NCBI GenBank assembly: GCA_032622095.1
Contig: CP136065.1
Location: 249,053,474 to 249,117,473 of the forward strand
From: Siphonodentalium dalli
Lineage: Eukaryota > Mollusca > Scaphopoda > Gadilida > Siphonodentaliidae
Direction: 5' to 3'
DNA length: 64,000 nucleotides
Shown here: positions 3,586-53,522 of the stretch, one piece after another
Position numbering within the stretch: the first letter of the stretch is position 1
How the letters are laid out: each line of letters begins with the position of its first letter
Program-made: the position numbers and the translations under genes
Notes under the pieces: model-generated
What the model was told of the DNA's origin: nothing
The model's database searches: none
What the model saw: only the letters and a program-made list of their open reading frames with translations

Positions 3586-3770
3586 CGGATAGCAGTCTTG
3601 AAATGTAGAATTTTACAGCATTCATTTAAATGTTGGTAAGCATGATCGTGGCTGATGTTCAGAAAAATATTACACTGTATAGATATGAATGTGAGATGGT
3701 TAGGGGTACCCTGGATGGTAAGAACAAGAGATGCATAGTGAATGAATGTCATCCCCAAAGATGTATTCAG

Positions 3771-6372
3771 GGTTCCAAGCTAATTAGTTAACCCACAGAG
3801 AGCCCCACATAGACTGGAGCAGACGATACTCCATAGTGCATGCTTCCATCTGTGAAGGCTCCCTGAAGGGTTCCAAGCTAATTAGTTAACCCACAGAGAG
3901 CCCCATATAGACTGGAGCAGACGATACTCCATAGTGCATGCTTCCATCTGTGTGGAGGCTCCCTGAAGGGTTCCAAGCTAATTAGTTAACCCACAGAGAG
4001 CCCCACATAGACTGGAGCAGACGATACTCCATAGTGCATGCTTCTATCTGTGTGGAGGCTCCGTGAAGGGTTCCAAGCTAATTAGTTAACCCACAGAGAG
4101 CCCCACATAGATTGGAGCAGACGATACTCCATAGTGCATGCTTCCATCTGTGTGGAGGCTCCCTGAAGGGTCCCAAGCTAATTAGTTAACCCACAGAGAG
4201 CCCCACATAGACTGGAGCAGACGATACTCCATAGTGCATGCTTCCATCTGTGTGAAGGCTCCCTGAAGGGTTCCAAGCTAATTAGTTAACCCACAGAGAG
4301 CCCCACATAGACTGGAGCAGACGATACTCCATAGTGCATGCTTCCATCTGTGTGGAGGCTCCCTGAAGGGTTCCAAGCTAATTAGTTAACCCACAGAGAG
4401 CCCCACATAGACTGGAGCAGACGATACTCCATAGTGCATGCTTCCATCTGTGTGGAGGCTCCCTGAAGGGTTCCAAGCTAATTAGTTAACCCACAGAGAG
4501 CCCCACATAGACTGGAGCAGACGATACTCCATAGTGCATGCTTCTATCTGTGTGGAGGCTCCCTGAAGGGTTCCAAGCTAATTAGTTAACCCACAGAGAG
4601 CCCCACATAGATTGGAGCAGACGATACTCCATAGTGCATGCTTCCATCTGTGTGGAGGCTCCCTGAAGGGTCCCAAGCTAATTAGTTAACCCACAGAGAG
4701 CTCCACATAGACTGGAGCAGACGATACTCCATAGTGCATGCTTCCATCTGTGTGGAGGCTCCGTGAAGGGTTCCAAGCTAATTAGTTAACCCACAGAGAG
4801 CCCCACATAGACTGGAGCAGACGATACTCCATAGTGCATGCTTCCATCTGTGGAGGCTCCCTGAAGGGTTCCAAGCTAATTAGTTAACCCACAGAGAGCC
4901 CCACATAGACTGGAGCAGACGATACTCCATAGTGCATGCTTCCATCTGTGGAGGCTCCCTGAAGGGTTCCAAGCTAATTAGTTAACCCACAGAGAGCCCC
5001 ACATAGACTGGAGCAGACAATACTCCATAGTGCATGCTTCCATCTGTGTGAAGGCTCCCTGAAGGGTTCCAAGCTAATTAGTTAACCCATAGAGAGCCCC
5101 ACATAGACTGGAGCAGACGATACTCCATAGTGCATGCTTCCATCTGTGTGGAGGCTCCCTGAAGGGTTCCAAGCTAATTAGTTAACCCACAGAGAGCCCC
5201 ACATAGACTGGAGCAGACGATAGTCCATAGTGCATGCTTCTATCTGTGTGGAGGCTCCCTGAAGGGTTCCAAGCTAATTAGTTAACCCATAGAGAGCCCC
5301 ACATAGACTGGAGCAGACGATACTCCATAGTGCATGCTTCCATCTGTGTGAAGGCTCCCTGAAGGGTTCCAAGCTAATTAGTTAACCCATAGAGAGCCCC
5401 ACATAGACTGGAGCAGACGATACTCCATAGTGCATGCTTCCATCTGTGGAGGCTCCCTGAAGGGTTCCAAGCTAATTAGTTAACCCACAGAGAGCCCCAC
5501 ATAGACTGGAGCAGACGATACTCCATAGTGCATGCTTCCATCTGTGTGAAGGCTCCCTGAAGGGTTCCAAGCTAATTAGTTAACCCACAGAGAGCCCCAC
5601 ATAGACTGGAGCAGACGATACTCCATAGTGCATGCTTCCATCTGTGTGGAGGCTCCCTGAAGGGTTCCAAGCTAATTAGTTAACCCACAGAGAGCCCCAC
5701 ATAGACTGGAGCAGACGATACTCCATAGTGCATGCTTCCATCTGTGTGGGGCTCCCTGAAGGGTTCCAAGCTAATTAGTTAACCCATAGAGAGCCCCACA
5801 TAGACTGGAGCAGACGATACTCCATAGTGCATGCTTCCATCTGTGTGGAGGCTCCCTGAAGGGTTCCAAGCTAATTAGTTAACCCACAGAGAGCCCCACA
5901 TAGACTGGAGCAGACGATACTCCATAGTGCATGCTTCCATCTGTGTGGAGGCTCCCTGAAGGGTTCCAAGCTAATTAGTTAACCCACAGAGAGCCCCACA
6001 TAGACTGGAGCAGACGATACTCCATAGTGCATGCTTCCATCTGTGTGGAGACTCCCTGAAGGGTTCCAAGCTAATTAGTTAACCCATAGAGAGCCCCACA
6101 TAGACTGGAGCAGACGATACTCCATAGTGCATGCTTCCATCTGTGGAGGCTCCCTGAAGGGTTCCAAGCTAATTAGTTAACCCACAGAGAGCCCCACATA
6201 GACTGGAGCAGACAATACTCCATAGTGCATGCTTCCATCTGTGAAGGCTCCCTGAAGGGTTCCAAGCTAATTAGTTAACCCACAGAGAGCCTGTCATAGA
6301 CTGGAGCAGACGATACTCCATAGTGCATGCTTCCATCTGTGTGGAGACTCCCTGAAGGGTTCCAAGCTAATT
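3771..6372. repeat. ~100-bp satellite array, about 26 units
   Basis: A unit of 97-100 bp starting ggttccaagctaattagtta is repeated head to tail with few substitutions; small length changes come from loss of 'gt' or 'tgtg' near the unit end. Within each unit, 'ttaacccacagagagcccca' and 'tctgtgtggaggctccct' form imperfect inverted arms around 'ctggagcagacgatactcca'. The core matches single dispersed hairpin elements at 8633-8712 and about 52960-53035. The array therefore appears to have grown from a TTAA-type hairpin MITE plus a short linker (ccaagctaattag). The last unit breaks off at 6372. Confidence 0.9.
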
Positions 6373-30142: not shown

Positions 30143-30271
30143 ATGACGAACACCAAAGGTTACAGGAGGGGTACTCGATACCTCTTCTCGAGGCAGTTCA
30201 GGAAGAAGGGCCCAATTCCACTTTCTACTTATATGAAAGTCTACAAAAGGGGAGATATTGTTGATGTGAAG
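30143..30271 (+). CDS. RPL21: RPL21 first coding exon
   Basis: Encodes 43 residues: [43 protein letters not shown]. Human is MTNTKGKRRGTRYMFSRPF and so on. The exon begins at 30135 after cctttttcag, with eight untranslated bases before the ATG, and ends in phase 0 at AAG|GTATGT. ATG 30143 is the first in the exon and matches the family start exactly. Confidence 0.97.
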
Positions 30272-31765: not shown

Positions 31766-31878
31766 GGTACAGGTACAGTGCAGAAGGGCATGCCACATAA
31801 ATATTACCATGGAAAAACTGGTAGAATCTTCAATGTTACAAAGCATGCTGTTGGTGTTGTCGTCAACAAGAGAGTGGG
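31766..31878 (+). CDS. RPL21: RPL21 second coding exon
   Basis: Encodes [20 protein letters not shown], then [17 protein letters not shown] and two bases of a Gly codon. Human has [20 protein letters not shown]. The acceptor is tttatttttcag and the donor GTGGG|GTAAGA. It leaves in phase 2, fitting the G that begins the next exon. Confidence 0.97.
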
Positions 31879-48922: not shown

Positions 48923-49282
48923 CGCACCTTTTATGTGGATAACATTGTCCTACCTATGGCGGTATACTGTTCATGTTTTGATAATAAAATATATCTAGAT
49001 TAAAATCTGTTGAATATTTTAAATTCTTGTCATGGTTATTAATATTGGTATGTTGAGTGCCAACTGCCATTTAATAACATGTAAAAAAAAATAATGAAAT
49101 AATGTGCACTTTGTACTCACTGAATGTGTACAGCAGCAATTTTCGTACAATTTGGTTTTGTGTGGATCGTAAATGAAAATATCTCATTGTGAAAGTCTTG
49201 GGATATAATTATCTGGGCTGGTAAGCCTAACTTTCAGCACATAAATGTATATGTGTATATTTTTCCCTCATTTGTTTCAAAT

Positions 49283-52205
49283 AATTCACCTTTATCTTAA
49301 CAGGCATCGAATCATCCCCAAGAGAGTCAACTTGAGGGTTGAGCACATAAAACACTCTAATAATCCACCTTTATCTTAACAGGCATCGAATCATCCCCAA
49401 GAGAGTCAACTTGAGGGTTGAGCATATAAAACACTCTAATAATCCACCTTTATCTTAACAGACATCGAATCATCCCTAAGAGAATCAACTTGAGGGTTGA
49501 GCATATAAAACACTCTAATAATCCACCTTTATCTTAACAGACATCGAATCATCCCTAAGAGACTCAACTTGAGGGTTGAGCATATAAAACACTCTAATAA
49601 TCCACCTTTATCTTAACAGGCATCGAATCATCCCTAAGAGAATCAACTTGAGGGTTGAGCATATAAAACACTCTAATAATCCACCTTTATCTTAACAGAC
49701 ATCGAATCATCCCTAAGAGAATCAACTTGAGGGTTGAGCATATAAAACACTCTAATAATCCACCTTTATCTTAACAGGCATCGAATCATCCCTAAGAGAA
49801 TCAACTTGAGGGTTGAGCATATAAAACACTCTAATAATCCACCTTTATCTTAACAGGCATCGAATCATCCCTAAGAGAATCAACTTGAGGGTTGAGCATA
49901 TAAAACACTCTAATAATCAACCTTTATCTTAACAGGCATCGAATCATCCCCAAGAGAGTCAACTTGAGGGTTGAGCATATAAAACACTCTAATAATCCAC
50001 CTTTATCTTAACAGGCATCGAATCATTCCCAAGAGAATCAACTTGAGGGTTGAACATATAAAACACTCTAATAATCCACCTTTATCTTAACAGGCATCGA
50101 ATCATCCCTAAGAGAATCAACTTGAGGGTTGAGCATATAAAACACTCTAATAATCCACCTTTATCTTAACAGGCATCGAATCATCCCTAAGAGAATCAAC
50201 TTGAGGGTTGAGCATATAAAACACTCTAATAATCCACCTTTATCTTAACAGGCATCGAATCATCCCTAAGAGAATCAACTTGAGGGTTGAGCATATAAAA
50301 CACTCTAATAATCCACCTTTATCTTAACAGGCATCGAATCATCCCTAAGAGAATCAACTTGAGGGTTGAGCATATAAAACACTCTAATAATCCACCTTTA
50401 TCTTAACAGACATCGAATCATCCCTAAGAGAATCAACTTGAGGGTTGAGCATATAAAACACTCTAATAATCCACCTTTATCTTAACAGGCATCGAATCAT
50501 CCCCAAGAGAATCAACTTGAGGGTTGAGCATATAAAACACTCTAATAATCCACCTTTATCTTAACAGGCATCGAATCATCCCTAAGAGACTCAACTTGAG
50601 GGTTGAGCATATAAAACACTCTAATAATCCACCTTTATCTTAACAGGCATCGAATCATCCCTAAGAGAATCAACTTGAGGGTTGAGCATATAAAACACTC
50701 TAATAATCCACCTTTATCTTAACAGGCATCGAATCATCCCTAAGAGAATCAACTTGAGGGTTGAGCATATAAAACACTCTAATAATCCACCTTTATCTTA
50801 ACAGACATCGAATCATCCCTAAGAGACTCAACTTGAGGGTTGAGCATATAAAACACTCTAATAATCCACCTTTATCTTAACAGGCATCGAATCATCCCTA
50901 AGAGAATCAACTTGAGGGTTGAGCATATAAAACACTCTAATAATCCACCTTTATCTTAACAGGCATCGAATCATCCCTAAGAGAATCAACTTGAGGGTTG
51001 AGCATATAAAACACTCTAATAATCCACCTTTATCTTAACAGACATCGAATCATCCCTAAGAGACTCAACTTGAGGGTTGAGCATATAAAACACTCTAATA
51101 ATCCACCTTTATCTTAACAGGCATCGAATCATCCCTAAGAGAATCAACTTGAGGGTTGAGCATATAAAACACTCTAATAATCCACCTTTATCTTAACAGG
51201 CATCGAATCATCCCCAAGAGAATCAACTTGAGGGTTGAGCATATAAAACACTCTAATAATCCACCTTTATCTTAACAGGCATCGAATCATCCCTAAGAGA
51301 CTCAACTTGAGGGTTGAGCATATAAAACACTCTAATAATCCACCTTTATCTTAACAGGCATCGAATCATCCCTAAGAGAATCAACTTGAGGGTTGAGCAT
51401 ATAAAACACTCTAATAATCCACCTTTATCTTAACAGGCATCGAATCATCCCTAAGAGAATCAACTTGAGGGTTGAGCATATAAAACACTCTAATAATCCA
51501 CCTTTATCTTAACAGGCATCGAATCATCCCCAAGAGAATCAACTTGAGGGTTGAGCATATAAAACACTCTAATAATCCACCTTTATCTTAACAGGCATCG
51601 AATCATCCCTAAGAGACTCAACTTGAGGGTTGAGCATATAAAACACTCTAATAATCCACCTTTATCTTAACAGGCATCGAATCATCCCTAAGAGAATCAA
51701 CTTGAGGGTTGAGCATATAAAACACTCTAATAATCCACCTTTATCTTAACAGGCATCGAATCATCCCTAAGAGACTCAACTTGAGGGTTGAGCATATAAA
51801 ACACTCTAATAATCCACCTTTATCTTAACAGATATCGAATCATCCCTAAGAGAATCAACTTGAGGGTTGAGCATATAAAACACTCTAATAATCCACCTTT
51901 ATCTTAACAGGCATCGAATCATCCCTAAGAGAATCAACTTGAGGGTTGAGCATATAAAACACTCTAATAATCCACCTTTATCTTAACAGACATCGAATCA
52001 TCCCTAAGAGAATCAACTTGAGGGTTGAGCATATAAAACACTCTAATAATCCACCTTTATATTAACAGGCATCGAATCATCCCTAAGAGAATCAACTTGA
52101 GGGTTGAGCATATAAAACACTCTAATAATCCACCTTTATCTTAACAGGCATCGAATCATCCCTAAGAGAATCAACTTGAGGGTTGAGCATATAAAACACT
52201 CTAAT
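49283..52205 (+). repeat. 79-bp acceptor-plus-exon array, 37 copies (RPL21)
   Basis: Exon-edge starts run from 49304 to 52148 in exactly 36 steps of 79 bp. Each unit holds 21 intron bases (aatccacctttatcttaacag) and the first 58 exon bases, coding (G)HRIIPKR(V/I/L)NLRVEHIKHSN. Only the last unit runs on into the rest of the exon. Copy 1 retains ataattcacc upstream, probably the original acceptor context. No length variation is seen across 2.9 kb, implying recent or homogenised expansion. Reading through from any earlier acceptor meets TAA in the following spacer. Confidence 0.97.
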
Positions 52206-52298
52206 TGCCGTCTGGATTTCTTGAAACGAGTTGAACAAAACGACAAAATAAAGGCTGAGGCAAAGGCTGGTGGTCCAAGACTAATTCTGAAACGACAG
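52148..52298 (+). CDS. RPL21: RPL21 third coding exon
   Basis: Encodes (G)HRIIPKRINLRVEHIKHS, then NCRLDFLKRVEQNDKIKAEA and KAGGPRLILKRQ. Human reads [20 protein letters not shown]. It starts in phase 2 at the 37th acceptor of the array and ends in phase 0 at CGACAG|GTATGT. A dispersed MITE begins only about 10 bp past the donor. Choice of the last acceptor is forced: any earlier one adds units with in-frame stops. Confidence 0.96.
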
Positions 52299-53340: not shown

Positions 53341-53484
53341 ATTAATTTAACTTATTTACATTTAAGCTTGGTGGACATATAGTCAACACGAGGAGGAACG
53401 CTCCATATTAATTTAACTTATTTACATTTCAGCCTGCTGGCCCTCTTGCTGGACATATAGTCAACACGAGGAGGAACACTCCAA
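53341..53484 (+). repeat. Acceptor-spanning duplication at RPL21 last exon
   Basis: 'attaatttaacttatttaca' plus ttt occurs at 53341 and 53407. Each is followed by exon sequence ggacatatagtcaacacgag plus gaggaac. The upstream copy has aag in place of cag and lacks about 12 exon bases, so it is a decayed duplicate. Confidence 0.88.
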
Positions 53485-53522
53485 CCATCTTGGAGCCCAT
53501 CAAATACGAGTTTATTGCATAA
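53433..53522 (+). CDS. RPL21: RPL21 last coding exon
   Basis: Encodes PAGPLAGHIVNTRRNTPT then ILEPIKYEFIA and TAA. Human ends LLEPIPYEFMA. The acceptor is tttacatttcag, phase 0. The poly(A) signal AATAAA at 53527-53532 nearly abuts the stop, implying a very short 3' UTR, as is common in ribosomal protein genes. Confidence 0.96.
   Translation, partial: PAGPLAGHIVNTRRNTPTILEPIKYEFIA

Follow-up and report, generated by a model that had tools for sequence, protein, structure and literature searches.

The window analysed here, a stretch of DNA of 64,000 nucleotides, carries a gene for the ribosomal protein eL21 (RPL21) in which the start of one coding exon stands, together with the splice acceptor before it, 37 times in a row. 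This raises the questions of which acceptor is used, how the array arose, and whether it is a device of RPL21 or one instance of something more general in this genome. Four coding exons (30143-30271, 31766-31878, 52148-52298 and 53433-53522) join to encode a complete eL21 of 160 amino acids. The predicted protein matches the Ribosomal_L21e model (PF01157) with 155.6 bits against a cut-off of 27 and aligns end to end with eL21 chains, which bears out the original prediction that the gene is intact all the way between its ATG and its stop. The donor proposed at 31878 was likewise affirmed, as the coding exon before the array ends there and is followed by GTAAGA. No structured RNAs or snoRNAs were detected in the RPL21 introns at Rfam gathering scores, either in positions 26000-60000 or in the whole window. 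A second RPL21 locus (locus B) lies 246 kb downstream on the same contig and contains the same array with 19 units. The features of the window are as follows.

30143-30271, plus strand: first coding exon of RPL21 with the ATG, donor GTATGT; identical at locus B
31766-31878, plus strand: second coding exon, donor GTAAGA; identical at locus B
31879-52147, plus strand: intron, 20.3 kb and including 36 exon-start copies if, as we infer, the last acceptor is used
49280-52205, plus strand: the mirage, a junction array with 37 copies of a 79-bp unit made of 24 nt of intron end and 55 nt of exon start
49304-49358, plus strand: exon-start copy of unit 1, behind the original intron, without the CTCTAAT heptamer
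52148-52298, plus strand: third coding exon, 151 nt, joined to the 37th acceptor, donor GTATGT; identical at locus B
53341-53405, plus strand: upstream duplicate of the last exon's acceptor and first bases, decayed here (AAG in place of CAG, exon piece shortened) but intact in locus B
53433-53522, plus strand: last coding exon, stop TAA

TRF resolved the array at 49280-52205 as 37.0 copies with a period of 79 and 98% matches. A direct scan found 37 acceptors of the form T[ACT]TTAACAG, always spaced by 79 bp, with first exonic bases from 49304 to 52148 and with the AG intact in all 37 units. Both confirm the head-to-tail arrangement of 79-bp units, each with its own acceptor, that had been claimed from the sequence. 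The intron-end part of most units ends with CTTTATCTTAACAG. Only from the 37th copy is the complete exon with its donor reached (52148-52298, then GTATGT), again as predicted. The earlier division of the unit into 21 and 58 nt, compared to 24 and 55 nt here, reflects nothing but a 3-nt AAT match at the unit joint, which makes the placing of the unit boundary ambiguous. All 56 matches of the unit in the genome, in a search that skipped very common words, fell inside the two RPL21 arrays (37 and 19). As the unit consists of RPL21 exon and intron end, and no match lay elsewhere, a repeat borne by a mobile element is not supported.

Individual units in the window differ from the consensus at 0 to 4 positions, and the mean difference is 1.1% in the window array and 1.7% in that of locus B. 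Inner units display 3 variant types over 24 intronic positions and 14 over 55 exonic positions, some of them with damaged codons, and the unit variants of both arrays gave no sign of selection preserving the inner acceptors. Since the units are only 1.1-1.7% away from their consensus, few losses of the AG are to be expected. The intact acceptors in all units are no evidence of use and are explained by recent homogenisation.

When the upstream acceptors were joined to the donor at 31878, an early stop followed in 54 of 54 cases (36/36 in the window and 18/18 at locus B). This stop falls at codon 106, within the intron end of the next unit, or at codon 83 for one unit of locus B. Consequently only the exon-adjacent copy keeps the frame, a feature of mirages, and just 1 of 37 and 1 of 19 acceptors yield the full protein. 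Because all upstream acceptors lead to early stops and no RPL21 loci beyond these two were found, the exon-proximal acceptor at 52148 is presumably the one used. In the mechanism that we propose, the spliceosome would join the donor at 31878 to this acceptor and the other 36 copies would leave with the intron. Exon definition is the likely reason, as the last acceptor alone has the next donor at a distance typical of an exon (151 nt). The upstream acceptors would generate exons of 230 to 2995 nt with a TAA in the next unit, and the resulting transcripts would be substrates for nonsense decay. First-come splicing, on the other hand, would favour the first acceptor and would count against use of the last one. 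YNYTRAY is a loose branch-point-like consensus, and the heptamer CTCTAAT, which fits it, occurs at the unit joint 23 nt before the AG of 36 of the 37 acceptors in the window and 18 of the 19 at locus B, being absent at the first. A branch-point-like heptamer also precedes the last RPL21 exon, but not exons 2 and 3. Its absence could weaken the first acceptor; as it provides no choice among the other 36, we attach little weight to it.

The Pfam model and two protein queries retrieved two RPL21 loci from the 2.2-Gb genome of 9 contigs. Genome-wide, these searches, from which gaps, withheld stretches and weak matches can hide copies, detected no array-free or intronless RPL21. The coding sequences of the window and locus B differ at 1 of 483 nt; three exons are identical and the one difference, in the last exon, leaves the protein unchanged. 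Five flanking or intronic pieces diverge by 0.75, 0.87, 2.29, 2.81 and 3.46%, with the locus B end of the 3' flank piece set 78 bases early, which adds gaps only. One unit in the window array and one at locus B share a combination of three variants (13C>T, 16T>C and 40G>A), and the other variants are private to one locus, a pattern of concerted evolution characteristic of mirages. Since both arrays include such a unit, the array must have existed before the two copies separated. The original prediction had named another intact RPL21 locus as a finding that would refute it. Such a locus does exist, but it offers no array-free rescue, as it contains 19 units of its own and is probably the other haplotype.

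Judging from the sequences, the two loci probably represent haplotypes of one gene that the assembly retained next to each other, with unit numbers of 37 and 19, although allelism is probable rather than proven. The alternative, a true duplication at a spacing of 246 kb in an animal with two RPL21 genes, each arrayed, appears unlikely to us, yet it is the rival that deserves most consideration. It would be in line with two copies on one contig that are colinear across the window and differ by many indels. A 100-N gap separates the loci (C5:249250945-249251044), and the gap alone is no proof against a duplication. The 3001 bases beginning 16 bases to the right of it match C5:249019372-249022380 over their full length with about 100% identity; the first 1959 of them are a repeat present at many places and the rest matches this region only. 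Moreover, the sequence left of the gap matches further downstream (C5:249391977-249394939) in inverted orientation, which also speaks for a duplication. Nevertheless, a match of all 3001 bases to one other place is what an overlap between contigs would produce. Further near-identical exon pairs were found about 270-330 kb apart, each on one contig (C6:54136960/54462445, C7:209492704/209786494 and C9:79527119/79799851), which argues against a true duplication, and these pairs may, like the RPL21 pair, be unmerged haplotypes.

The last RPL21 coding exon also has a duplicated junction: its acceptor and first 53 nt are present twice with a period of 78. Locus B has kept the two acceptors intact, with exon copies at C5:249352328 and C5:249352406 (L007 6304-6496). 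Similar junction duplications were not found at RPL21 exons 2 and 3.

Arrays of this anatomy have been described in amphioxus as mirages, tandem units that span a splice junction and in which either exon edge can be copied (PMC3087553, PMC3902484). The amphioxus BflGb6 gene has 6 and 3 units on different haplotypes (PMC3087553), PGBD5 was added as a further case with Adh and troponin C cited alongside (PMC3902484), and somatic length instability has been reported for amphioxus Adh3. According to these reports regular splicing is undisturbed by mirages (PMC3087553, PMC3902484), and the amphioxus authors proposed them as a source of new introns (PMC3087553). The RPL21 array resembles mirages in that its units span a splice junction, repeating intron end and exon start in tandem in 37 units in the window and 19 at locus B. 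It is unlike them in these unit numbers, in its location in a ribosomal protein gene and in the lack of any array-free copy in our searches. Moreover, the host of the RPL21 array looks molluscan whereas amphioxus mirage hosts are cephalochordate, and the frequency of junction arrays was here estimated across a sample of exons, unlike in the amphioxus work. The molluscan affinity is suggested by a myosin exon of this genome, which aligned best with scallop and squid chains (207.9 to 198.6 bits), followed by a tarantula chain (177.6 bits) and vertebrate myosins (about 151 bits or lower). The original remark that no described gene was known with this many acceptor copies was incomplete, as the structure has precedents. 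The kind is already known from amphioxus; what is new is the probable phylum, the scale and the presence in an essential gene for which no array-free copy was found. No junction arrays in molluscs were found among the papers listed in a literature search by title and abstract opening, which covered few subscription papers.

A duplication of the intron 7/exon 8 junction in human CBS was reported to be spliced with strong preference for the distal copy, so that the upstream exon piece is removed (PMC2630376, citing others). The passage concerned says 'donor' for this duplication, whereas Romano 2002, among the references of that paper, has 3' splice site in its title. Like RPL21, this is a tandem copy of a 3' splice junction, but it comprises two copies only and is a single polymorphism and no minisatellite. 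The 31-bp VNTR of human CBS at an exon/intron boundary is comparable to the RPL21 array in having units that carry a splice site, and differs in being on the donor side, with a shorter unit and at one locus. Tandem genomic duplication has also been described as a route to intron gain, for example in the potato RdRp gene (PMC4974935). There, as in RPL21, a tandem duplication copied splice signals, but a new intron arose inside coding sequence, while in RPL21 an existing junction was multiplied and the old intron grows.

To estimate how common junction arrays are in this one genome, the flanks of exon matches of two families, myosin head and kinesin motor, were read. The sample of 118 exons consisted of 80 of the 103 listed kinesin matches and 38 of the 80 listed myosin matches. 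Forty myosin matches were taken and two (L056 and L058) dropped due to cut flanks; the kinesin matches were picked by hand before their sequence was seen, leaving out further copies of near-identical exons, including some in long open frames, as well as a portion of the weakest matches. Exon edges were defined by the ends of the profile matches, except for 20 loci at which they were set by eye. A script flagged 19 loci with repeats across a match edge, of which L132 and L041 were removed by eye since their arrays end just before the acceptor; L070 was added by eye because the profile match overran the exon, resulting in 18. The protein kinase family (PF00069) turned out to be unsuitable as a survey set, as 96 of the 135 listed matches belong to one cluster of 0.78 Mb (C2:149826753-150603706), most of whose frames are near-identical, about 281 aa long, and span the whole domain with no intron. 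Myosin heavy chain genes form a cluster as well, with about 11 copies resembling one another within 1.3 Mb (C4:274219458-275508405).

Tandem copies were present within the stretch examined at 32 of the 118 kinesin and myosin exons. Tandem copies of the splice junction itself, judged by eye, were present at 18, about 1 in 7, in a sample that is small and partly paralogous and in which the paralogous L027 and L029 may be one event. These exons and the most extensive array are:

Donor-side junction copies: L027, L029, L051, L070, L087, L090, L105, L107, L113, L117, L121, L128, L133
Acceptor-side junction copies: L049, L126, L135, L136, L137
L144 14-1321 (C2:63733000-63735400), minus strand: kinesin exon end and donor (GATTTAGCAG/GTAACT), about 39 x 34 bp

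At the kinesin donor of L107, 30 of the roughly 39 copies of the 34-bp unit contain the exact donor motif. About 19 copies were counted for the myosin donor of L051, 13-15 for the myosin acceptor of L049, 7 for L136 and 3.6 for L090, and the L105 kinesin exon occurs in three near-identical versions with arrays of 14.5, 11.5 and 14.5 copies. The exon content per copy can be small (about 4 nt in L070 and about 6 nt in L136), and the upstream copy of L126 has lost its AG. A stop occurred in the profile-matched frame of 27 of the 118 loci, including L051, L070 and L107, in most cases because the match extends beyond the exon. Two further arrays near myosin exons were not counted: L146 1084-1369, with a donor-like unit ACCAG/GTATGTCG (26 bp x 11), and L145 1984-2118, with GGAG/GTATGG (55 bp x 2.5).

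Tandem repeats covered 19 of 236 junctions compared to 22 of 236 points 150 nt into the introns and 6 of 236 points 60 nt inside the exons; the 19 edges include an acceptor-side array at L105 whose exon content is doubtful. Special targeting of junctions is thus unsupported (19/236 against 22/236; Fisher p 0.62, computed with 18 against 22), and splice junctions look neither targeted nor spared by tandem repeats. We claim no donor bias among the arrays, although 13 of the 18 exons are affected on the donor side (binomial p 0.096).

These data bear on three other explanations of the RPL21 array. Unproductive splicing is known in ribosomal protein genes, and the array might act as a rheostat of regulated decoys, in which transcripts spliced at upstream acceptors are lost to nonsense decay and array length sets RPL21 output. 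The early stops behind 54 of 54 upstream acceptors and the differing lengths of 37 and 19 units would suit such a function. We nonetheless consider it improbable, as the inner units are without sign of selection and comparable arrays occur in unrelated genes at an intron-like frequency, which indicates a mutational habit and not an RPL21 device. As far as the reading frames go, RUST-type decoys in RPL21 amount to a potential for early stops. Still less credible, and indeed very unlikely, is that the RPL21 copy in the window is a non-expressed duplicate and its array harmless decay. A second locus does exist, as this would require, but it has the array too, both loci encode the same intact protein at 1/483 nt difference, and an array-free copy was not found. 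That the assembler inflated the repeat number is in our judgement the least probable explanation of all. An assembly may miscount the units of an array of 2.9 kb, and the region includes a gap and probably unmerged haplotypes; yet two separately assembled copies are both arrayed, with different unit variants and numbers, and many further junction arrays exist elsewhere in the genome.

We therefore interpret the RPL21 array, with considerable confidence, as a mirage that would have grown by exchange or slippage, that would be spliced at its exon-proximal acceptor through exon definition, and that reflects a genome-wide habit. The minisatellite would have been born by a tandem duplication that covered the 3' end of the long intron together with 55 nt of exon start, and its length would then have been altered by unequal exchange or slippage. 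The array would be a single instance of tandem duplication that occurs throughout the genome and includes splice junctions roughly as readily as intron sequence. With somewhat less assurance, though we favour it, we propose that in this probably molluscan genome junction arrays are routine, affecting about 1 in 7 sampled exons with up to about 39 copies and including an essential ribosomal gene, with no indication of selection clearing them from junctions compared to introns. If this rate holds genome-wide, mirages exist far outside the cephalochordates. The genome would then constitute a natural experiment: by extrapolation, it would hold thousands of series of near-identical splice sites, each won by the site nearest the exon. 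The choice among identical neighbouring splice sites is usually tested with designed minigenes; a genome rich in junction arrays whose order is known would allow distance rules, exon definition and first-come kinetics to be studied with ordinary RNA data. RPL21 would be the sharpest case: the gene is essential, and its output falls unless 36 of the 37 near-identical acceptors are passed over. The arrays also bear on intron growth and gain, since each of them converts copies of coding sequence into intron.

Within the window, 17% of the bases lie in TRF arrays, or 13% without the RPL21 array. Another large array, at 3769-6372, consists of 26 copies of 100 bp, and the region's second copy contains a corresponding array.
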